Below the pieces are notes generated by a model. That model was not told the DNA's origin. It made no database searches and saw only the letters and a program-made list of their open reading frames with translations. Positions 35,989 through 45,499 of a stretch of 46,803 nucleotides of DNA are shown in pieces (the first letter of the stretch is position 1; every line of letters begins with the position of its first letter). A program made the translations under genes and the position numbers. Origin of the DNA: Zoogloea ramigera (GTDB lineage: Bacteria; Pseudomonadota; Gammaproteobacteria; Burkholderiales; Rhodocyclaceae); the NCBI RefSeq assembly GCF_006539865.1, contig NZ_BJNV01000038.1, positions 1 to 46,803 of the forward strand. The letters are read 5' to 3'.

Positions 35989-36219
35989 TTATTTGCGGCG
36001 CAGGAAGAACTCGTGGGACTCGTCGGGCAGCGCGTTCTGGGCTGCCAGCTCGTTGCCGGTCTGCCGGGCAAAGGCGGCGAAATCCTTCACCGAGCCCGGG
36101 TCGGTCGCGACCACCCGCAGGACCTGGCCCGCCTGCATTTCGGCGAGCGCTTTCTTGGCACGTAAAATGGGCAGCGGACAGTTGAGTCCGCGGGCATCCA
36201 CTTCCTTGTCGAATTCCAT
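35989..36219 (-). CDS. TusA-like sulfurtransferase
   Basis: 76 residues. The family signature C14-P-x-P (LNCPLPILRAKKAL) carries the catalytic cysteine that forms a persulfide. Members move sulfur for tRNA thiolation, molybdenum cofactor synthesis or sulfur oxidation. There is no tus or dsr operon here, so the partner is unknown; soxYZ and moaC lie 6-7 kb away on the other strand. The gene is monocistronic, convergent with valS. Confidence 0.9.
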   Translation of the reverse strand: MEFDKEVDARGLNCPLPILRAKKALAEMQAGQVLRVVATDPGSVKDFAAFARQTGNELAAQNALPDESHEFFLRRK

Positions 36220-36344
36220 TGCTTTGCTCCAGTTCGGGATGAGGGCCGTCGAGGCGCAATTTTACTCCGTCAAGCCCCAAAACCCGACATAGATCACGGC
36301 CGGGACACACTCCAAGAAAAAATGCTCAGGGCTTTGTGAAATAA

Positions 36345-36370
36345 TGACAACTCGAAAATCATGTTATAAA
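36345..36370 (+). promoter_or_regulatory. Candidate extended -10 promoter of the Roadblock-GTPase operon
   Basis: TGTTATAAA at 36362-36370 fits an extended -10 (TG-n-TATAAA). ATGACA at 36344-36349 is a -35 candidate at a short 15-base spacing. The leader to the ATG at 36469 would be about 90 bases. Confidence 0.5.
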
Positions 36371-36468
36371 CGGTTCGACACCCTTTGCTGCGGGGGCCAT
36401 TTTGCCCCAAGGTAGAGGTCAAAAACGGCCTTCAAACAACCCTGACCCACATTTCGAGGTACTGCACG

Positions 36469-36834
36469 ATGCGCTCAAACATGCTCCAAACGGTTCTCAA
36501 CGACTTGAACGGAACCTCCGCAGACATCGAGGCTTCGGCCATCATTTCGTCCGACGGCCTGATGATGGCCGCCCTGCTGCCCAACACCGTCGACGAAGAC
36601 CGCGTCGGCGCCATGAGTGCCGCCATGCTGTCCCTGGGCGACCGCACCGCCCGCGAACTCGCCCGCGGCAGTCTCGACCAGGTCCTGATCAAGGGCGAGA
36701 AGGGTTACGTCCTGATGGTCCAGGCCGGCGCCGACGCCGTGCTCACCGTGATGGCCAAGCCTAACGCCAAGCTCGGCCTCGTGTTCCTCGACGTCCGTCG
36801 CGCCGCCGACGCCATCGGCAGGATCCTCGGCTGA
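36469..36834 (+). CDS. Roadblock/LC7 domain protein
   Basis: 121 residues forming a single Roadblock/LC7 fold: helix 1 (LQTVLNDLNG), strand with SAIISSDGLMMAALLP, long helix (VGAMSAAMLSLGDRTARELARG), then the strand pair QVLIKGEKGYVLMVQAG and VLTVMAKPNAKLGLVFLDVRRAADAIGRIL. Such proteins dimerise and act as GAPs or partners for small GTPases (MglB with MglA; Streptomyces conservon proteins). It is the first gene of a seven-gene run that also encodes a GTPase. The ATG at 36469 has GAGG upstream. The family is clear; the partner is inferred. Confidence 0.9.
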   Translation: MRSNMLQTVLNDLNGTSADIEASAIISSDGLMMAALLPNTVDEDRVGAMSAAMLSLGDRTARELARGSLDQVLIKGEKGYVLMVQAGADAVLTVMAKPNAKLGLVFLDVRRAADAIGRILG

Positions 36835-36848
36835 AAGGAGCCATCATC

Positions 36849-37328
36849 TTGAAGGACATGGATCCCGCCGACATCGTCGGCGAAGCAGTCGAACATGTGC
36901 TCACCTACACCGGCGGAAACACCCGCCGGGTGTATGTCACACCCATCGAAACCCCTTACCCCCACGGGAAGCTGATCGTCTCGCGCACCGACACCCGGGG
37001 CATCATGACCCAGTGCAACCCGTCTTTTGTAGACATGTCCGGCTACGGCGAGGCAGAACTCATCGGCCAGCCCCACTGCCTCCTGCGTCACCCCGACATG
37101 CCCGCCGCCGCCTTCCGCGACCTCTGGGAGACCGTCCAGGCCGGCCGCCAATGGCACGGCTACGTCAAGAACCTGCGCAAGGACGGCGGCCACTACTGGG
37201 TGTACGCCACGGTCGTCCCCAACGTCCGTGACGGCAAGATCGTCGGTTTCACCTCCGTCCGGCGCGAACCCTCCCGCGAGAAGGTCGCCGCCGCCGAGGC
37301 GCAGTACCAGGAGATGCGCGGATCATGA
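36849..37328 (+). CDS. Stand-alone Aer-type PAS protein
   Basis: 159 residues, mostly one PAS domain (about 44-140) strikingly like the FAD-binding PAS of the aerotaxis receptor Aer: RHPDMP at 80-85, AAFRDLW, W102, VKN at 106-108, then RKDGGHYWV. Aer-like proteins sense redox or respiratory state through FAD; here no HAMP or chemoreceptor domain follows, so the signal must go to another protein. The start is taken as TTG (36849) because AAAGGAG lies eight bases upstream; an ATG at 36858 is possible. It follows the Roadblock gene by 14 bases and overlaps the next gene by four (ATGA). FAD binding is inferred from residues. Confidence 0.85.
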   Translation: MKDMDPADIVGEAVEHVLTYTGGNTRRVYVTPIETPYPHGKLIVSRTDTRGIMTQCNPSFVDMSGYGEAELIGQPHCLLRHPDMPAAAFRDLWETVQAGRQWHGYVKNLRKDGGHYWVYATVVPNVRDGKIVGFTSVRREPSREKVAAAEAQYQEMRGS

Positions 37329-38071
37329 CCATCAACTTCACGGTAAGCCCGAGCTTTCCCAACGAGCGCATTTCCGACTGGTACATCTTCAACACCTGGC
37401 TGCAGCGCGCCCTGTCCGTGCCGATCCACCTCGAGCTCTACAACAGCTTCGGTGCCCAGCGGGCCGCCATCGCCGAGGGCAAGGTCGACCTCATCTACGC
37501 CAACCCCTTCGACGCCTCGCTGCTGGTGCGTGAAAAAGGCTTCCGCGCCATCGCCCGCCCCGAGGGCCCGCCCGACGAGATGGTCGTCATCACCGGCACC
37601 GACAGCCCGGCCCGGGAGATCCGCGACCTGCAGCCCGGCACGCGGCTGGCCTGCAGCGACGACCCCTGCGTGAACACCGTCGGTCGCATCCTCCTCGAGC
37701 CCGCCAACCTCGACGACAGCAACACCGTCGAGCACCGGCGCGAAACCTACATCCAGGTCGCGCGGGAGCTGCTGCGCGGCGAGGCCGACATCGGCTTCCT
37801 GCCGGTGGAAGCCTTCGAGGGCTTCTCCCCGCTGGTCCGGCGTGACCTGCGGGCCCTCGTCACCAGTGAGCTCCATGTGATCCGCCATGTCTTCCTGGTG
37901 GGGCCGGCCCTGGCCGAGCGCACCGACGAGCTCACGGCGCTGCTGCTGTCGATGCACGAAAGCGACAAGGGGCGCGGCATCCTCGAAGCCCTGGGGGCCC
38001 GGCGCTTGCTGCCGGTCCAGCACGAAGACGTCGAATTCATGATCGACATCATCTCGACCCTTGACCAGTGA
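37325..38071 (+). CDS. PhnD-like substrate-binding protein without signal peptide
   Basis: 248 residues matching the phosphate/phosphonate-binding (PhnD/SsuA) fold: SPSFPNERISDWYIFNTWLQRAL, then GKVDLIYANPFDASLLVREKGF, GTRLACSDDP and GEADIGFLPVEAF. Ordinary members are periplasmic components of ABC importers. This one begins directly with the first strand and has no signal peptide, lipobox or permease neighbours, so it is probably a cytoplasmic ligand sensor. The four-base overlaps on both sides tie it to the PAS gene and to the next gene. The ligand is unknown. Confidence 0.85.
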   Translation: MTINFTVSPSFPNERISDWYIFNTWLQRALSVPIHLELYNSFGAQRAAIAEGKVDLIYANPFDASLLVREKGFRAIARPEGPPDEMVVITGTDSPAREIRDLQPGTRLACSDDPCVNTVGRILLEPANLDDSNTVEHRRETYIQVARELLRGEADIGFLPVEAFEGFSPLVRRDLRALVTSELHVIRHVFLVGPALAERTDELTALLLSMHESDKGRGILEALGARRLLPVQHEDVEFMIDIISTLDQ

Positions 38072-38544
38072 AGCCCTTCCTCACCGACAAGACCTGCCCG
38101 GAACGCATCCGGACACCTGCACCACCGGCGGTCTTCGGGCTGCCGGTGCGCACGCTCAGCATCGCCTCCCGCTGGTGTTCGCCCGCGACCGGCGCCTTGC
38201 TTGCCGGCGAGATCGGCCGCAAGCCTGCCAATCTGCACCTGCACATCCAGCGCATCTCCCTCTGGCACGGGCTGGGCGACGACGACGCCACCGCTGCGGC
38301 GGTGATCGACCTGTGGATCATCCTCGGCGCCCTGGGGCAAGAACTCCGCACGCGCATGCTCCGCCAGCATTACGCGGCCCTCGACAAGCTCGATCTCGGC
38401 CTCTACCTGAGCGAGCGCCTGGAGCCGGGCCTCGATCGCCACGACCCGCTCATCGCCCTGCCCGGCTCCGTCCTCAGCCGGCCGGTTGCCGGCGCCCGGG
38501 CCTTCCTGCGTACCGTCCCCCTGCCGTCGGCGACGGCGCCCTGA
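38068..38544 (+). CDS. Unknown protein of the Roadblock-GTPase operon
   Basis: 158 residues starting at a GTG that overlaps the preceding stop (GTGA). No signal peptide or membrane helix. The middle section (about 60-125: LHLHIQRISLWHGLGDDDATAAAVIDLWIILGALGQELRTRMLRQHYAALDKLD, quoted in parts) is helical, with hydrophobic heptads that could form a helical bundle or coiled coil. I recognise no family. Its role is suggested only by tight coupling with sensor and GTPase genes. Confidence 0.75.
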   Translation: MKPFLTDKTCPERIRTPAPPAVFGLPVRTLSIASRWCSPATGALLAGEIGRKPANLHLHIQRISLWHGLGDDDATAAAVIDLWIILGALGQELRTRMLRQHYAALDKLDLGLYLSERLEPGLDRHDPLIALPGSVLSRPVAGARAFLRTVPLPSATAP

Positions 38545-38582
38545 CCCGTCGCCGCCCAGCGCCCCATGCCTTCACCTCGCCC

Positions 38583-38593
38583 GCCCCCCCCCC
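38583..38593 (+). repeat. Poly-C tract of 11 bases
   Basis: A run of 11 C in the short spacer upstream of the pseudo-receiver gene. If translation started at the ATG at 38566 the tract would be coding, and slippage would shift frame. Confidence 0.85.
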
Positions 38594-38637
38594 GAGTCGG
38601 TACTTTCCTGCGCAGACCTTCGCCCACTCATTTTTTC

Positions 38638-39882
38638 ATGATCCGCCACTCCAATCCTCCGGGCCAGCCCCTCACGGCCCTCTACCTGCTCCATGTGGGC
38701 AGCATGGACGCGCGCCTGATCGGGCTCTCCACCGAGCGCCACTGGAAGCATCAGGTGAAGCTGGCGAGCGCACTGAACGAGGCAGAGGTGGTCCTCGTCG
38801 ACTGTGACCGGCCCGGCATCGAGGCCGCTGTCGAACAGCTCGCATCGCGGCCCCGCACCGGTGTCGTGTACTACGCCTTTCACCCCAAGGATCACGCTCA
38901 GCGCTTCCCCAACCGTCTGATCCTCGGCAAGCCACTCAACCTCGAGGCCCTGCCGGCCATTCTCGCCAAGGCCGCCGCCGACGCGGCCCGCATGATCGCC
39001 ACCCCGCCGCCCCGCTTCGTTGCCCCGCCCCCGCCGCCGCCCGCCGCCCCGGAAGAAAAAACCCCGGCCTCCCTCGGGCATGGCCTGCAGACCGAGGACG
39101 AGCGCGACCTCTGCGGCGCCATGGACGACATCCCCGCCACGCCCGGCCAGCCGCTCCCCGACAGGCTCTTCTTCAACCCTGACGAATACATCATCGGCCA
39201 CATCCACCGGGCCGTGGAGCAGGCGGCCAACACCGGGCGCCCCCACCTGGTGGCCGGCCTGCCGCGCCTGATCGGCGTGCGTGCGACTCCGGTGCCGGCC
39301 TGCATCACCGATTTCCGCGACAACCAGCTGCGCCCGCTGTCGATGACGCAGCTCCCGCTCACCACCGCCCGCATCGTCAGCGCCTCCACGCTGCCGCAGA
39401 CATCCGGCAACGAGATCGTGCACAGCTCCGAAGACCTGCTCTGGAACGTCGCCGCCTGGGCGGCCCGCGGGCGCCTGCCGGCCGGCGCCGACCCCTACCG
39501 CCCGGTGCGCCTGCGCGCCTGGCCCAACTGCACCAAGGTCTTCATGTCGCCCCACGCCATGCGCATCGCGGCGCTATGGACGCGCACCTGGGCCAGCCCC
39601 GTCGACATCGCCGCCCGCCTGGGCATCGCCCAGCGCTACGTGTTCTCGGTGTATTCCTCGGCACGCTTCGCCGGCCTGATCGACTTCGCCGCTCCTCCCA
39701 AGCCGATCGTGCCTGCCGCCCCGGCCAGGCAGTTCAGCGCCCCCGAAGACCCCACCCTTCAGATAGTCACCACCGCCCCAGCTACCGACAAGGCACCTCC
39801 CCCCGCCCCGGAAGCCAAGCAAACACAACAACGTCCGTCGATTTTGTCCAGAATTCTCAGGAAGCTCCTCAATGCGGTCTGA
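38638..39882 (+). CDS. Pseudo-receiver / winged-helix-like protein of the GTPase operon
   Basis: 414 residues. The N-terminal ~110 resemble a response-regulator receiver: strands ALYLLHVGS, EVVLVDCDRP and GVVYYAFHP, and a terminal GKPLNLEALPAILAKA like the KP-x-lysine loop. The acidic pocket and phosphorylatable aspartate are not convincing, so it is probably a pseudo-receiver. A proline-rich linker follows (about 118-135). The central part is unassigned, and residues about 305-355 (MRIAALWTRTWASPVDIAARLG to FAGLIDF) look winged-helix-like. The basic tail (about 365-414) is low complexity. No ribosome site is evident. The start is the ATG at 38638; an ATG at 38566 would add 24 residues through the poly-C tract. 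It overlaps the GTPase gene by 11 bases. Confidence 0.78.
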   Translation: MIRHSNPPGQPLTALYLLHVGSMDARLIGLSTERHWKHQVKLASALNEAEVVLVDCDRPGIEAAVEQLASRPRTGVVYYAFHPKDHAQRFPNRLILGKPLNLEALPAILAKAAADAARMIATPPPRFVAPPPPPPAAPEEKTPASLGHGLQTEDERDLCGAMDDIPATPGQPLPDRLFFNPDEYIIGHIHRAVEQAANTGRPHLVAGLPRLIGVRATPVPACITDFRDNQLRPLSMTQLPLTTARIVSASTLPQTSGNEIVHSSEDLLWNVAAWAARGRLPAGADPYRPVRLRAWPNCTKVFMSPHAMRIAALWTRTWASPVDIAARLGIAQRYVFSVYSSARFAGLIDFAAPPKPIVPAAPARQFSAPEDPTLQIVTTAPATDKAPPPAPEAKQTQQRPSILSRILRKLLNAV

Positions 39883-40432
39883 ACGCGCCCGACATAACAA
39901 GATCATCTTCTCCGGGACGGTCGGTGCCGGTAAAAGCACCGCCATCGCCGCCCTCAGCGACATTCCCCCGGTGGCCACCGAAGCCGTCGCCAGCGACGAG
40001 ACCGGCCTGATCAAGAAGACCACCACCGTGGCCATGGACTACGGCGTCCTCAACCTCCCCGGTGGCGAGAAGGTCATGCTCTACGGCACGCCCGGGCAGG
40101 AGCGCTTCAACTTCATGTGGGAGATCCTCTCCGAGGGCGGCATCGGCCTCGTGCTGCTGATCAACAACGCCAACCCCGACCCGCTGGCTGACCTGCAAGG
40201 CTATCTGCACGCCTTCAAGGACTTCATCTCCAAAACAGCCGTCACGATCGGCGTGACGCACATGGACCGGGCCGAAGCCCCCGACCTCGACGCCTACCGC
40301 ACCCGCCTCGCCAGCCTCGGCCATCAACCGCCGCCGGCCGTCTTCCGGGTCGACGCCCGCAGCCGTGACGACGTGGCGATGCTGGTAAAGGCACTCCTCT
40401 ACACCCTCAATCCCGGACTGATCGATGCTTGA
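39872..40432 (+). CDS. Small Ras-like GTPase
   Basis: 186 residues of a single G domain. The P-loop is GTVGAGKST (15-23), switch I lies around TTTVAMDYG (50-58), G3 is YGTPGQERF (71-79), and the G4 position reads VTHMD (128-132) where Ras proteins have NKxD. The arrangement is like bacterial MglA/Rup-type GTPases and the GTPases of actinobacterial conservons. It starts with an AGGAAG ribosome site and overlaps both neighbours (11 and 8 bases). With two Roadblock proteins in the operon it is probably the core switch; GTP specificity with THMD instead of NKxD is not proven. Confidence 0.9.
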   Translation: MRSERARHNKIIFSGTVGAGKSTAIAALSDIPPVATEAVASDETGLIKKTTTVAMDYGVLNLPGGEKVMLYGTPGQERFNFMWEILSEGGIGLVLLINNANPDPLADLQGYLHAFKDFISKTAVTIGVTHMDRAEAPDLDAYRTRLASLGHQPPPAVFRVDARSRDDVAMLVKALLYTLNPGLIDA

Positions 40433-41057
40433 GATTATTCCCGGCAACTACCTTACGGTCACACCCTACGGGGCCTGGCGCGCCGTGGCCCGCGCCGACG
40501 ACAGCCCCGAACGGCGCATCCTGATGGCCATCCTGCGGGAAGCCACCAGCCCCGAACTCACCCTCGCCGCCGCCAGCTTCTGGACCGGCGAGAGCGACGC
40601 CGAGGCCGCCCTCACGCCCCTCCTCCGGCTGCAGGAGGACGCCAGCCTGCAGGCCTGGCCCAGCGCCCGGGCTGCCCCGCTGGGCACCCTCGAGGCCACG
40701 CTGCCGCAGTTCCTGGCCCAGCTCAGCGACGCCGGGCAGGCGGTGCTGGCCGACAGCATGGGCTTCTGCCTGGCGATGACCGGCTACGACCACGAGACCG
40801 GCGAAGCCCTGGCCGCCCTCGGCGCCGACATGCTGTCGGTGGCCGAGCGCCAGTCGGCTGCCCTGGCCAAGCTGGGCGACCACCTTCTCGATGGCTGGGG
40901 CAACGTCGACGCCGCCGGCATCAGCGGCCTCAGCTTCTGGCCCATGCACGTCGGCCGCACCCGGCTGGCCCTCACCGTGAGCGGCCGCCCGCGCTTCAAC
41001 CAGCAAGCCTTCGCCGATCTGGTGTGGGCGCTCTGCGTGCGCTACGGGCGTCTCTAG
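40425..41057 (+). CDS. Divergent Roadblock-like protein with N-terminal extension
   Basis: 210 residues. Residues 1 to about 85 form a small helical module (RRILMAILREATSPELTLAA, then ESDAEAALTPLLRLQEDAS) that could be winged-helix-like. Residues about 100-210 fit a diverged Roadblock fold: LADSMGFCLAMTGYD, long helix EALAALGADMLSVAERQSAALAKL, then TRLALTVSGRPRFNQQAFADLVWALCV. It overlaps the GTPase by eight bases, suggesting equimolar production and direct interaction. The fold call is tentative and was made by eye. Confidence 0.72.
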   Translation: MLEIIPGNYLTVTPYGAWRAVARADDSPERRILMAILREATSPELTLAAASFWTGESDAEAALTPLLRLQEDASLQAWPSARAAPLGTLEATLPQFLAQLSDAGQAVLADSMGFCLAMTGYDHETGEALAALGADMLSVAERQSAALAKLGDHLLDGWGNVDAAGISGLSFWPMHVGRTRLALTVSGRPRFNQQAFADLVWALCVRYGRL

Positions 41058-41084: not shown

Positions 41085-42524
41085 TCAGCGCTGCTGACGC
41101 GTCTCGCGCAGCTGCTCCTCCAGCAGCACGCGCACCTCCCGCAGCCGCGAGTCCACCGCCGACTGCTCGAAGAAATCCCCATCACCCGCGGCCCGGGCCA
41201 GCGCCAGCTGGTTGGCCGACTCCGCGTAATTGCCCTGGATCGCATACACCTCGGCCAGTGATCGGTGCTGGGCCAGGCGCTTGCCGAGGGCCGACTCGGC
41301 CCGCGCGCGGAGCTCCCACAGCCCCGCGCTGGCCGGGCGGGTGAGCGTCTCGGCCTTGGCCAGCTCGAAGGCCTCGGCCGGCCGGCCCGCCTCCAGCAGC
41401 GCCTCCAGTTCGCCGTGCAGCAGCCGGCGGGCCTGGGGGAAACGCGCCCGCGCCTCGCGGAAGACCTTCGCCGCCCCCAGCGGATCGCGGTGGGCCAGCC
41501 GCAGCTCGGCCGCCAGGCCGTCGATCATCGGCGAGACGGCCTGCCCCTTGCGCAACTGCGCCATCGCCCGATCCGCATCGCCCAGGCGCTGGGTGCTCAG
41601 ATAGGCCCTCACGAGGCCGTACTGCGCCGCGGTGCTCGCCCCTTCAGCCGCGGCAGCCCGCTCGAAGGCCTCGAGCACCTCCCGCGAGGCCACCGTGCCC
41701 ACCTTCAGCTTCGCCCGCACCAGCTGGAAGTCGAGGGAATCCGGCACCTGCCGGTAAGGCAGCTGCATCACCCGGCCCTCCATCTCGGAGATACGCTCGC
41801 CGGTGAGGGGGTGGGTGCGCAGGTAGGCGGGCGCGTTGTTCTCGTAGAGCCGGCTGTTCTTCTGCAGCCGCTCGAAGAAGGCCGACATGCCTCGCACATC
41901 GAAGCCGGCGGCGGTGAGGTTCTGCAGGCCGATGCGGTCGGCCTCGTGCTCGAAGCTCCGCGAGTAGGCCAGCTGCGAACTCATGCTCGCCGCCTGCCCG
42001 CCCATGATCGCCGCCTGGCTCATCTGCGGGCTCGACTTGGCGGCCAGCACCGCCACCAGCAGCGAGGCCAGCATCAGCAGCCCGGTCTCGCTCTGCCGCC
42101 CCACCATGCGCGCGATGTGGCGCTGCGTGACGTGGGCCACCTCGTGGGCCATCACCCCGGCCAGCTCGGATTCGCTCTGGGCCGCCAGGATCAGGCCCGT
42201 ATGCACCCCGATATTGCCCCCCGGCATCGCAAAGGCGTTGAGACTGCTGTCGTCGACCCCGAAGAACTGGAAGGGCAGCCCGGCCCCGTCGCTCACCGCC
42301 ACCAGGCGGCCCCCCAGATGGTTGAGATAATCCTCCACCTCCAGGTCGCGCAGGTAGGCCGGGTCGCGCCAGCGGATCTCGCGCATGATCTGCGCCCCGA
42401 GGCGCTGCTCGGCGAGCGGTGACAGGTCGGCGGAGGCACTATCGCCCAGCTCCGGCAGGGTCTGAGCGAAGCCTTGCGGCAAAAGGGCCACGCACAACAG
42501 CGCGGCGATCAGGCGATTTTTCAC
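41085..42524 (-). CDS. M48 family periplasmic metalloprotease with TPR repeats (BepA-like)
   Basis: 479 residues with a signal peptide (about 1-20, ends FAQ), an M48 zinc-peptidase domain with HEVAH and the downstream glutamate in FEHEADRIG, and a C-terminal region of about 200 residues with TPR-like helical repeats ([45 protein letters not shown]). BepA-type enzymes act as proteases and chaperones for outer-membrane proteins such as LptD. The start is a GTG at 42524, since no ATG precedes the signal peptide closely. It is divergent from moaC and convergent with the GTPase operon. Confidence 0.93.
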
Positions 42525-42581
42525 GATGCTATGATACGCGACCCCGCCAAGACGTTCCCCGACCCCACCCAGCGAGGCTCC

Positions 42582-43061
42582 ATGACCGACACCCTCACCC
42601 ACTTCGACGCCCAGGGCCAGGCCCACATGGTGGACGTCTCCGCCAAATCGGAAACCCGGCGCGTCGCCCGCGCCGAAGGCTGCATCGTGATGCAGCCAGC
42701 CACCCTGGCGCGCATTCTGGCCGGCGACAACAAAAAGGGCGACGTGATCGGCATCGCCCGCATCGCCGCCATCCAGGGCGCCAAGCGTACCGCCGACCTG
42801 ATCCCCCTGTGCCACCCGATCTTCCTCACCCGCGTGGCGGCCGACTTCAGCGTCGAGGGCGACACCACCATCCGCTGCACCGTCACCGCCGAAACCGTCG
42901 GCCGCACCGGCGTCGAGATGGAAGCCCTCACCGCGGTGCAGGTCGGCCTGCTCACCATCTACGACATGTGCAAGGCCGTGGACAAGGGCATGACGATGGA
43001 CGGCATCCGCCTGCTCGAAAAAGAGGGCGGCAAGTCGGGGTACTGGAAGGCGGAGGCCTGA
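42582..43061 (+). CDS. moaC: Cyclic pyranopterin monophosphate synthase
   Basis: Second enzyme of molybdenum cofactor synthesis; makes cPMP from the MoaA product. It has 159 residues. Diagnostic segments are [49 protein letters not shown] and KSGYWK. The ATG at 42582 has GAGG upstream and gives the normal length. soxY follows with a three-base gap, suggesting cotranscription. Confidence 0.96.
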
Positions 43062-43064
43062 GCG

Positions 43065-43538
43065 ATGGAGATGGCTCCCCACCGCCGCAGCTTTCTGCAG
43101 GCCTTCGGTAGCGCCGGCATTCTCGCCGGTCTGGTCGGAGGCGGCCTGCTCCGCCCGGGCCAGGCGCTGGCCGTGGACTTCAACCGCGCCGCCTTCGACG
43201 CCCGCTCCGCCGCCGACGCCCTGCGCCTCATCGGCGCCACCGCTGCCGAGACCAGCGCCGACATCGTCCTCAAAACCCCCGAGATCGCCGAGAACGGCGC
43301 CGCCGTGCCGATCGAGGTGATCAGCAACATCCCCGGCACCACGCGCCTGTCGGTGCTGGTCGACAAGAACCCCTTCCCCCTCGCCCTGCAGTTCAACTTT
43401 GCCCCCCCGGCCGTGGCACGCTTCCAGGCCAGGCTCAAGATGGGCGAAAGCTCCCGCCTGCGCATCGTCGCCAGCGCCGGTGGCAAGCACTACACGGTGT
43501 TCCGCGAGGTCAAGGTTACCGCCGGCGGCTGCGGCTGA
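43065..43538 (+). CDS. soxY: Thiosulfate-oxidation carrier protein SoxY
   Basis: Periplasmic carrier to which sulfur intermediates are bound via the terminal cysteine. It has 157 residues. A Tat-type signal (HRRSFLQAFGSAGILAG) is followed by the SoxY domain and ends in the swinging-arm motif GGCG (VTAGGCG). GGAGG lies eight bases before the ATG. It is paired with soxZ, but soxXA, soxB and soxCD are not in the window. Confidence 0.95.
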   Translation: MEMAPHRRSFLQAFGSAGILAGLVGGGLLRPGQALAVDFNRAAFDARSAADALRLIGATAAETSADIVLKTPEIAENGAAVPIEVISNIPGTTRLSVLVDKNPFPLALQFNFAPPAVARFQARLKMGESSRLRIVASAGGKHYTVFREVKVTAGGCG

Positions 43539-43556
43539 GCACCCCAGGAGAGACCC

Positions 43557-43874
43557 ATGTCCGACCCCATCAAGATCCGCGCCACCGTCAAGGGCAGCGA
43601 CGGCGAAGTGCGCGTGCTGCTGCCCCACCCCATGGAATCCGGCCAGCGTCGCGACGCCGGCGGGCAAGCCGTACCGGCCCACTTCATCACCTCCGTCACC
43701 CTCAGCATCAACGGCCGGCCGGTGATCGAAGGCGGCCTCGGCACCGCCGTGTCGGCCAATCCCCTGTTCGGCTTCCAGTTTGCCGGCGTCAAGGCCGGCG
43801 ACAAGGTGGCCATCGCGTGGCTCGACAACAAGGGCCAGCGGGGCAACGCCGAGACGGTTTTCGCCGCCGGCTGA
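43557..43874 (+). CDS. soxZ: Thiosulfate-oxidation protein SoxZ
   Basis: 105 residues; forms the SoxYZ heterodimer. It begins DPIKIRATVKGSDGEVRVLLPHPMESGQR and contains VPAHFITSVTL, typical of SoxZ. It has no signal peptide, as is normal: the pair is exported together through SoxY's Tat signal. It lies 18 bases after soxY. Confidence 0.95.
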   Translation: MSDPIKIRATVKGSDGEVRVLLPHPMESGQRRDAGGQAVPAHFITSVTLSINGRPVIEGGLGTAVSANPLFGFQFAGVKAGDKVAIAWLDNKGQRGNAETVFAAG

Positions 43875-43912
43875 GGGGCCTGCCAAGCAGCCGCACTGTC
43901 ACATGGGCGCGC

Positions 43913-43942
43913 AAGACAGCGCGCCGCCATCGGGTCTAGAAT
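43913..43942 (+). promoter_or_regulatory. Candidate promoter of the CYTH-CHAD/SixA/GNAT operon
   Basis: AAGACA (43913-43918), an 18-base spacer, TAGAAT (43937-43942), in the only spacer between soxZ and the CYTH-CHAD gene. The leader would be about 45 bases. Confidence 0.45.
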
Positions 43943-43993
43943 TGCGCGCGCGCCCTCATCCCGGGGGCGCCCCGTACCCGCGATGGCACCCCC

Positions 43994-45499
43994 ATGAGCC
44001 ACGAGATCGAACTCAAGCTGACCCTGCCCCAGAAGTCCCTGCCCGCCCTGCGCCGCCACCCGCTGATCGCCGAAGCCCCCCGCGACGGCCGCGCGTGCAC
44101 CCTCGAGAACACCTACTTCGACACCATTGATCTCGAGCTGCGCGAACGCCGCATGGCGGTGCGCACCCGCAAGGCCGGCAGCCGCTGGCTGCAGACCGTC
44201 AAGTGCGCCGCCGAATCGGTGGCCGGCCTGTCGGCCCGCCCCGAGTGGGAGCAGCCCTACGCCAACGCCTGCTTCGACTTCTCGGCCATCGACCGCGACG
44301 ACGTGAGAAAGCGCCTCGAAGAGCTCCAGCCGCGCCTGGTGCCGGTGTTCACCACCCACTTCCGCCGCGAGACCGTCATCCTCACCCCCCGCGAGGGCGT
44401 CAAGGTGCTGGCCATGATCGACAACGGCCACATCGAGGCCGCCGAACGCAGCCAGCCCCTCTGCGAACTCGAGCTCGAGCTCGTCGAAGGTGACCCGGCC
44501 GAGCTCTACGCCCTCGCCCAGCAGCTCGCCGAGACCCTGCCCCTCACCCCCGAGAACGTCAGCAAGGCCGAGCGCGGCTACCGCCTGTTCTCCAACCACG
44601 CCCTGCGCCCGGCCAAGGCCCGGCCGTCGCGGCTGGCCGCCGAGCAGTCGCCGGTCGACGCCTTCCGCATCATCGGCTTCGACTGCCTGGCCCTGTGGCA
44701 GGCCAACGAGTCCGGCGCCCGCGAGAGCGACGACCCCGAGTTCATCCACCAGCTCCGCGTCGCGCTGCGCCGCCTGCGCTCGGCGCTGCGCCTGTTCAGC
44801 CCGGCCCTGCCGGCCGACTTCGTGAGCCGCTGGTCCGACGGCCTCAAGGAGGCCGCCGACGGCCTCGGCGCCGCCCGCGACCTCGACGTGATGCTCGCCG
44901 AAGTGCTCAGCCCGGTGGCCGAATCCGGCCTCGCCGACGAAGCCACCCAGCGCCTCATCGCAATGGCCGTCGACCGCCGCGACCGCGAGAAGACCGCCGC
45001 CCGCGAGCAGCTCCTGGCCGCCAGCCACGGCCGCCAGATGCTGGCCCTCGCCGCCGATCTTTATGGCCTCGAGAGCGACGCGCTGGTCAAGTCGGCCAAC
45101 CTCACCACCTTCGCCCGCCTGCAGCTCACCCAGCTGCGCAAGCGTGCCCGCAAGCGCTACGCCGCCGCGGCCGACCTGCACCCCGACAAGCTCCACGAGC
45201 TGCGCGTCTCCCTCAAGCGGCTGCGCTACGCCATCGAGTTCCTGCTGCCGCTGCTGCCCGAGAAGGCCACCGTCCGCTACGCCAACGAGCTGGCCGAGAT
45301 CCAGGACACCCTCGGCTACATCAACGACGAGGCCGTCGCCCGCGGCCGCCTCAAGGCCTGGGCCGGCAAGGACCCCGAGCTGCGCAGCGGCGCCGCCTTC
45401 GTGGCCGGCTGGCACGCCCCCCGGATCGCCCGCCTGCGCCGCAACATTCTGCCCACCCTCGAGCCCGTGCTGTGGGGCAAGTCCCCCTGGCGGCGATGA
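43994..45499 (+). CDS. CYTH-CHAD domain protein
   Basis: 501 residues. The N-terminal CYTH domain has the ExExK signature (E4-E6-K8 in MSHEIELKL) and a basic tunnel with RR/TRKAG segments; CYTH enzymes hydrolyse triphosphates such as inorganic tripolyphosphate. A C-terminal CHAD helical domain (about 225-500) carries conserved histidines and basic residues (FIHQLRVALRRLRSALRLF; LHELRVSLKRLRYAIEF), known in other proteins to bind polyphosphate. Together they suggest tripolyphosphatase or polyphosphate-granule association. It is followed by sixA after 65 bases. Confidence 0.93.
   Translation: MSHEIELKLTLPQKSLPALRRHPLIAEAPRDGRACTLENTYFDTIDLELRERRMAVRTRKAGSRWLQTVKCAAESVAGLSARPEWEQPYANACFDFSAIDRDDVRKRLEELQPRLVPVFTTHFRRETVILTPREGVKVLAMIDNGHIEAAERSQPLCELELELVEGDPAELYALAQQLAETLPLTPENVSKAERGYRLFSNHALRPAKARPSRLAAEQSPVDAFRIIGFDCLALWQANESGARESDDPEFIHQLRVALRRLRSALRLFSPALPADFVSRWSDGLKEAADGLGAARDLDVMLAEVLSPVAESGLADEATQRLIAMAVDRRDREKTAAREQLLAASHGRQMLALAADLYGLESDALVKSANLTTFARLQLTQLRKRARKRYAAAADLHPDKLHELRVSLKRLRYAIEFLLPLLPEKATVRYANELAEIQDTLGYINDEAVARGRLKAWAGKDPELRSGAAFVAGWHAPRIARLRRNILPTLEPVLWGKSPWRR

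Follow-up and report, generated by a model that had tools for sequence, protein, structure and literature searches.

The 46,803-nucleotide contig NZ_BJNV01000038.1 of the wastewater bacterium Zoogloea ramigera (assembly GCF_006539865.1), called here over its full length the window, carries at positions 36469 to 41057 seven open reading frames (ORFs) that all lie on the + strand. A preliminary description of this DNA had read them as a sensory GTPase operon with Roadblock proteins, an Aer-type PAS protein, a PhnD-like protein and a pseudo-receiver, and all seven ORFs were confirmed. The features are as follows.

36469..36834, + strand: RB1, a Roadblock/LC7 (MglB-like) protein of 121 amino acids (Pfam PF03259, E=4.7e-15)
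36849..37328, + strand: stand-alone PAS protein of the Aer type, without HAMP or signaling domain (PDB 8dik match, PAS_3)
37325..38071, + strand: PhnD-like (Phosphonate-bd) protein without signal peptide (Pfam PF12974, E=8.7e-38)
38068..38544, + strand: U4, the fourth gene, without Pfam family (homologues, model of the relative in locus L055, fusions)
38566..39882, + strand: REC5, with a receiver-like N domain, a linker and a conserved C domain (profile, AlphaFold2 [AF2] model, Foldseek)
39872..40432, + strand: small GTPase of the Group 3 MglA type (motifs, profile matches to Rab and MglA structures)
40425..41057, + strand: RB7, a second, divergent roadblock candidate with extra N-terminal sequence (weak Robl_LC7 match, profile match to CvnB5)

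The spacing is tight, as first described. Four junctions overlap: PAS/PhnD by 4 nucleotides (nt; PhnD start 37325, PAS end 37328), PhnD/U4 by 4 nt (U4 start 38068, PhnD end 38071), REC5/GTPase by 11 nt (39872-39882) and GTPase/RB7 by 8 nt (40425-40432). RB1 and PAS are 14 nt apart (36834 to 36849), and the sixth junction, U4/REC5, is a gap of 21 nt (38544 to 38566), which would widen to about 93 nt with the in-frame ATG at 38638 as the start of REC5, a start that its homologues and the low confidence of the first 30 residues of its model suggest. The flanking genes on both sides (TusA; M48 protease) lie on the opposite strand. The interval 36100-36600 yielded no sigma-70-like promoter, and there is no kinase gene among the seven genes.

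Results

The GTPase carries the motifs GTVGAGKST and TPGQERF, the G4 motif THMD and the G5 motif DAR (VDAR). Its best Pfam match is ATP_bind_1 (40 bits, above the cut-off), the NCBIfam small_GTP match is below the cut-off, and its profile matches Rab and MglA structures. Of 102 relatives, 91 have DAR and 20 have the G4 lysine. Group 3 MglA was defined by genomics in 2014 as a beta/gamma-proteobacterial group that includes Neisseria (Wuichet and Sogaard-Andersen, PMC4316618). Members of the group often lack the G4 lysine of [NT]KxD, have DAR as G5, and are encoded together with a receiver-like and winged-helix-like protein and with either one or two MglB homologues. All these traits are found in the window: a lysine-less G4, DAR, a receiver-like partner, MglB-like genes and the matching taxa. 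Judged from motifs and gene neighbors, the window GTPase fits Group 3 MglA. Neisseria rows fall within the tree of GTPase relatives, the deep forks of which are weakly supported; one of the nearest loci, also from Zoogloea (L027), has a GTPase that is 99% identical.

The genome of the window has another Group 3 locus (L112, G000:C14:46000-64000), with paralogues of U4, REC5, the GTPase and RB7 and with an outer-membrane efflux protein gene downstream; no RB1 was found there. One stretch of another genome (L109, G125:C5) contains two REC5-GTPase pairs on the same strand, likely a tandem duplication. In relatives of another type (L071 9525-10868, L062 9554-10903, and L210), a protein with one part resembling an ABC ATPase and another resembling a dual-specificity phosphatase, a 130-158 amino acid protein of no known family and a ferredoxin-reductase/globin protein are encoded beside the GTPase.

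Both roadblock assignments of the preliminary description were retained, at different strengths. RB1 is clear: its Robl_LC7 match is above the cut-off, and it is 62-75% identical to most aligned gammaproteobacterial counterparts and 55-58% to those of Neisseria. RB7 scores 15.6 bits with Robl_LC7, under the cut-off of 23, and hhalign gives it a probability of 6% against RB1. With its profile, four PDB chains were matched at E<=1: CvnB5 (0.0027), Rv3364c (0.061), which we take to be a roadblock protein, a designed helical repeat (0.46) and a Roadblock/LC7 chain (0.63). RB7 can be considered a candidate divergent roadblock protein, as judged from these profile matches.

The PAS protein (PAS_3, E=3.2e-16) has the PAS domain of E. 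coli Aer as its best PDB match (8dik, E=4.6e-37, residues 34-155), with 60 of 122 aligned residues identical (49%). It shares the RHPDMP region of Aer, which we take to be part of the FAD-binding region in that protein, and the RHPxMP motif is present in 34 of the 38 PAS entries scanned. Whereas E. coli Aer also has HAMP and chemoreceptor signaling domains, the Zoogloea protein has only the PAS domain in its 159 amino acids and stands alone.

The PhnD-like protein, also correctly named at the start, begins at the mature domain and has no hydrophobic N-terminal stretch, based on a hydropathy measure and not on a signal-peptide predictor. The N-terminus was readable in 43 of 48 PhnD entries (not in L040, one piece of L192, and L238 three times); none of the 43 has a hydrophobic stretch, and the highest 15-residue mean hydropathy was 1.09. 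Locus L238 is counted several times among the 38 PAS and 48 PhnD entries. Because such a stretch is lacking, a cytoplasmic location is expected, and the PhnD-like protein is probably cytoplasmic. A role as part of a transporter was rejected, as the protein has no hydrophobic N-terminus and the operon has no permease or transporter gene. In L049 (12593-16004), a HAMP-PAS-GGDEF-EAL protein adjoins a PhnD-like protein that is longer by about 50 residues at its N-terminus, on the strand opposite the Group 3 operon.

U4 of the window matched no Pfam family. The AF2 model of its relative in L055 consists of helices only, arranged in two bundles (mean pLDDT 84.7, pTM 0.51), and Foldseek of this model gave weak matches dominated by TPR proteins (best E, 0.13). 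The idea that U4 is a third roadblock protein is unsupported, given this helical model and its matches. Pfam TPR families match four of five longer U4 relatives, mostly below the cut-off (L072, L058, L271 and L273; not L050). The C-terminal part of the U4 profile also matches many long ORFs; the one that was checked, in the genome of the window, is FimV/HubP (TIGR03505, TIGR03504), matched in mid-protein, possibly through general TPR likeness. In two stretches of one genome family, U4 and RB7 are fused in a single ORF (L268, 3742-5181; L273, 4676-6118), adjoining a REC5-like ORF and with no GTPase gene in either stretch. These fusions argue that U4 and RB7 work together.

REC5 matched no Pfam family, DNA-binding families included. 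Its profile matches response regulators with E values down to 8e-5, and its AF2 model (mean pLDDT 84) has a CheY-like N domain, for which Foldseek returned receivers with probability 1.00 in most top rows, yet with E values above 0.001. By profile and predicted fold, the N-terminal part is a receiver, which agrees with the receiver half of the preliminary "pseudo-receiver". Of a full phosphorylation site, the acidic pair seems to be only partly present in the aligned sequences. At least 90% of 63 rows retain D79, located where strand 3 ends, and K122-P123, and because of this conservation it does not seem safe to regard REC5 as a dead receiver.

The distribution of the genes was followed in related genomes. 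A GTPase profile search (E<=1e-20) gave hits in 30 of 300 genomes of the order and in 65 of 369 of the class; this search scores only the best first-look candidates, so that absence from a genome is unproven. From 61 of the 65 positive genomes, 80 stretches were taken for the class (G000, G197, G240 and G740 lie outside this set). Genes of the relatives are simple ORF calls and stretches stop at contig ends, so absences are to be read as lower bounds. RB7 is present in 31 of the 80 stretches, and these contain RB1 (31 stretches), REC5 (30), U4 (25), PAS with PhnD (13), protoglobin (5, one maybe a remnant) and CZB (1). In the 49 stretches without RB7, PAS with PhnD on the same strand was found in none. 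The search in the other direction, started from PhnD (E<=1e-20), gave 21 places in 19 of the 369 genomes. All 16 matches with at least 41% identity, the window included, sit in this type of operon; 14 of them are at most 3 kb from a GTPase hit, the operon of G585 is GTPase-less, and in G803 the match follows RB7-RB1-PAS on a short contig. None of the five weaker matches (30-34%) is near a GTPase hit. The contigs of the PhnD and U4 places and of the GTPase hits were matched by eye.

Among 86 nonredundant loci of the RB7 type, 37 carry PAS, and in all 37 PAS is followed directly by PhnD; the two genes travel as a cassette. The order RB1-PAS-PhnD-U4-REC5-GTPase-RB7 occurs in 12 of these loci (Zoogloea and one relative, G125), and most of the remaining 25 have the order U4-REC5-GTPase-RB7-RB1-PAS-PhnD, of which the Zoogloea order is a circular permutation. 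On the GTPase tree the presence of PAS-PhnD changed at least 15 times by parsimony (78 labeled rows, deep forks weak; the other 8 of the 86 rows were scored as unknown, with a contig end close by). The co-occurrence of the seven genes goes beyond chance, as it recurs in Zoogloea and in other beta- and gamma-proteobacteria, which is the conserved synteny that the preliminary description had asked for.

Other operons carry other genes at the place of the cassette or beside it. Protoglobin (PF11563) is encoded between RB7 and RB1 or after RB1, and CZB (PF13682), FIST (L206 and L211) and a methyl-accepting chemotaxis protein (MCP; L207) are encoded after RB1. All four are sensory families, and they occur in operons without PAS-PhnD or next to it. 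The protoglobin match in L202 may be a remnant, as there is no ORF of at least 80 amino acids there.

Outside the operon, the + strand of the window carries consecutive genes for MoaC, SoxY, SoxZ and a CYTH-CHAD protein (42474-45499).

Discussion

The preliminary description knew of no characterized system with this composition. For the core this does not hold: the GTPase, its receiver-like partner and the two roadblock proteins have already been described as a Group 3 MglA system, and the seven-gene composition cannot be called unprecedented in that part, since that group was described in 2014. For the sensory input the claim may hold. The account of Group 3 MglA in section 18 of PMC4316618 mentions no PAS, PhnD-like, protoglobin, CZB, FIST or U4 genes. 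In the open-licence literature, covered mostly at the level of listings, we found no account of sensors with MglA/roadblock systems and no paper that combines roadblock, protoglobin, GTPase and PAS. The operon falls within a known family on which little work has been done, and its sensor-rich variant may be new.

The reading that we favor, tentatively and at somewhat less than an even chance, is that of a Group 3 MglA switch with its own soluble sensors, which would tune roadblock control without a kinase and with pili and polarity as the output. The GTPase would be the molecular switch, with RB1 and RB7 as its roadblock regulators, similar to a GTPase-activating protein or a guanine nucleotide exchange factor; U4 would be the partner of RB7, and REC5 would serve as an adaptor of the receiver type. 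The redox or oxygen state would be read by the Aer-like PAS protein through a putative flavin, and a small cytoplasmic ligand by the PhnD-like protein. Both would act on the roadblock/U4 part and in this way alter the time that the GTPase spends in its GTP form. The targets of MglA-GTP would be type IV pili and cell polarity, and surface behavior would thereby track the redox state without a histidine kinase. This reading builds on the observed gene content, Group 3 traits, gene linkage, exchange of sensors between relatives and U4-RB7 fusions; binding of flavin and ligand, the flow of the signal and the effect on pili or polarity are inferred. A more general form of this proposal is possible but more doubtful: interchangeable soluble sensors (PAS with cytosolic PhnD-like protein, protoglobin, CZB, FIST) would feed a kinase-free hub of roadblock proteins, U4 and REC5; this hub would control a Ras-like GTPase, steer type IV pili and polarity, and be GTPase-free in some lineages. 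Inputs of these kinds are usually coupled to chemoreceptors or cyclic di-GMP (c-di-GMP) enzymes.

The support for a polarity or motility output of the operon is indirect. A PilT-family gene (E<=1e-100) is present in 65 of 65 GTPase-positive genomes, as compared by eye, versus 244 of 304 others (Fisher p=2.8e-6). Pilus genes next to the operon are not part of this support: the sole one that we noticed, without a systematic look, encodes a PilB-like ATPase in L061 and L189, which are probably the same contig. In Snodgrassella, whose mglA belongs to Group 3, a mutation in an orphan mglB altered soft-agar colony edges and gut colonization, which the authors read as an effect on pilus-dependent motility (PMC11112851). 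The action of M. xanthus MglA with SgmX and FrzS and the stand-alone GAF input of related actinobacterial systems, both treated below, also fit the favored reading.

Several observations weigh against the proposed switch. For PilT, both ancestry and genome size are confounding factors, and the E. coli control scores as well. Zoogloea U4 lacks the TPR-like part of its longer relatives. No recognized sensor gene lies by RB1 in 11 of the 31 class loci with RB7, where not every next gene was scanned; one of the next genes scanned, in L224, encodes glycyl-tRNA synthetase. The partners of the GTPase also stay together even without it. U4 profile rows that reach the N domain number 45, corresponding to 44 places (one is split). 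Whereas 26 of the 44 share a contig with a GTPase hit, 18 do not, and all 18 were inspected: 13 are loci with roadblock genes and no GTPase between or beside them, and the remaining five are cut at contig ends or consist of U4 alone. The 13 GTPase-less loci have these arrangements.

REC5-RB1-protoglobin-U4-RB7: L274, L276, L278, L281
U4-REC5-RB7-protoglobin-RB1: L280, L282
U4-REC5-RB7-PhnD-RB1-PAS-PhnD: L266
U4-RB7 alone: L271, L272, L279
U4-RB7 fusion beside REC5: L268, L273
U4-REC5-RB7 on a cut contig: L285

A sensor is kept in 7 of the 13 (protoglobin in six, PAS-PhnD in one). The genome has a Group 3 GTPase elsewhere in 7 of the 13, whereas G585, G803, G637, G541 and G756 are without any Group 3 GTPase hit. 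The preliminary reading is supported in part, by the gene identities and the conserved synteny, but U4, the roadblocks, REC5 and the sensors are not confined to loci with the GTPase.

It is conceivable, if rather unlikely, that the system does not center on the GTPase: U4, RB7, RB1, REC5 and the sensors would make up a separate sensory complex, which the GTPase would join as an optional client or in which another partner would take its place. The 13 GTPase-less loci, one of them with the full set including PAS-PhnD, and the genomes without a hit speak for such a complex; the 26 U4 places on a GTPase contig speak for the switch, as do the GTPases encoded elsewhere, and a very divergent GTPase may be present. 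A further possibility, which we consider unlikely, is that the output is gene regulation, with REC5 as a receiver/winged-helix transcription factor whose DNA binding is set by the GTPase, roadblocks and sensors. The C-terminal part of REC5 was in fact read as DNA-binding by earlier authors, from Phyre2 predictions for Group 3 partners (PMC4316618). The receiver fold with its conserved D79 and K122-P123, three C-terminal helices in the model that could be a helix-turn-helix, and the position of REC5 next to the roadblocks in most GTPase-less loci would agree with this. However, among the Foldseek matches listed for REC5 the receiver part alone was matched, the protein has no Pfam DNA-binding family, and no target sites are known. 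Least probable, and in our view quite improbable, is that PAS and PhnD are mere neighbors that serve a chemotaxis or c-di-GMP pathway and give no signal to the GTPase or roadblocks. The MCP gene of L207 could be taken in this way, as could the GGDEF-EAL protein of L049, which lies close to the operon and next to a further PhnD-like protein, but the PAS-PhnD pairing is invariant and lies inside the operon in two arrangements, and every close PhnD match is linked to this operon type.

A kinase-free Group 3 MglA switch with sensors of its own would differ from the systems that it resembles. The actinobacterial G protein systems, or conservons, share an MglA-type GTPase and a roadblock protein, and some of their operons have stand-alone accessory proteins (GAF, P450) that were proposed as inputs; in one case a stand-alone GAF protein is the input and acts on the histidine kinase (PMC13343842). 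The conservons signal through the CvnA histidine kinase, whereas the Zoogloea operon has no kinase and other sensor families. In Myxococcus xanthus, MglA acts via the TPR protein SgmX and the pseudo-receiver FrzS, so that this system shares a GTPase, a roadblock regulator (MglB), a TPR protein and a (pseudo)receiver, with pili as the output (PMC11580455). Its GTPase belongs to a different group, the accessible part of that paper describes no PAS or PhnD sensor genes, and its partners are not co-encoded (PMC4316618), unlike those of Zoogloea.

How signals enter bacterial small-GTPase systems, a largely open question, becomes directly testable in this family, in which the genes for candidate inputs adjoin the switch and are swapped between relatives. 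The Zoogloea operon is a favorable test case, with one operon, soluble proteins and a PAS domain for the best relative of which a structure has been solved. A further question, posed by the GTPase-less versions, is the role of roadblock proteins in the absence of their GTPase. If the proposed reading is true, these bacteria would have another sensory wiring alongside chemoreceptors and histidine kinases.

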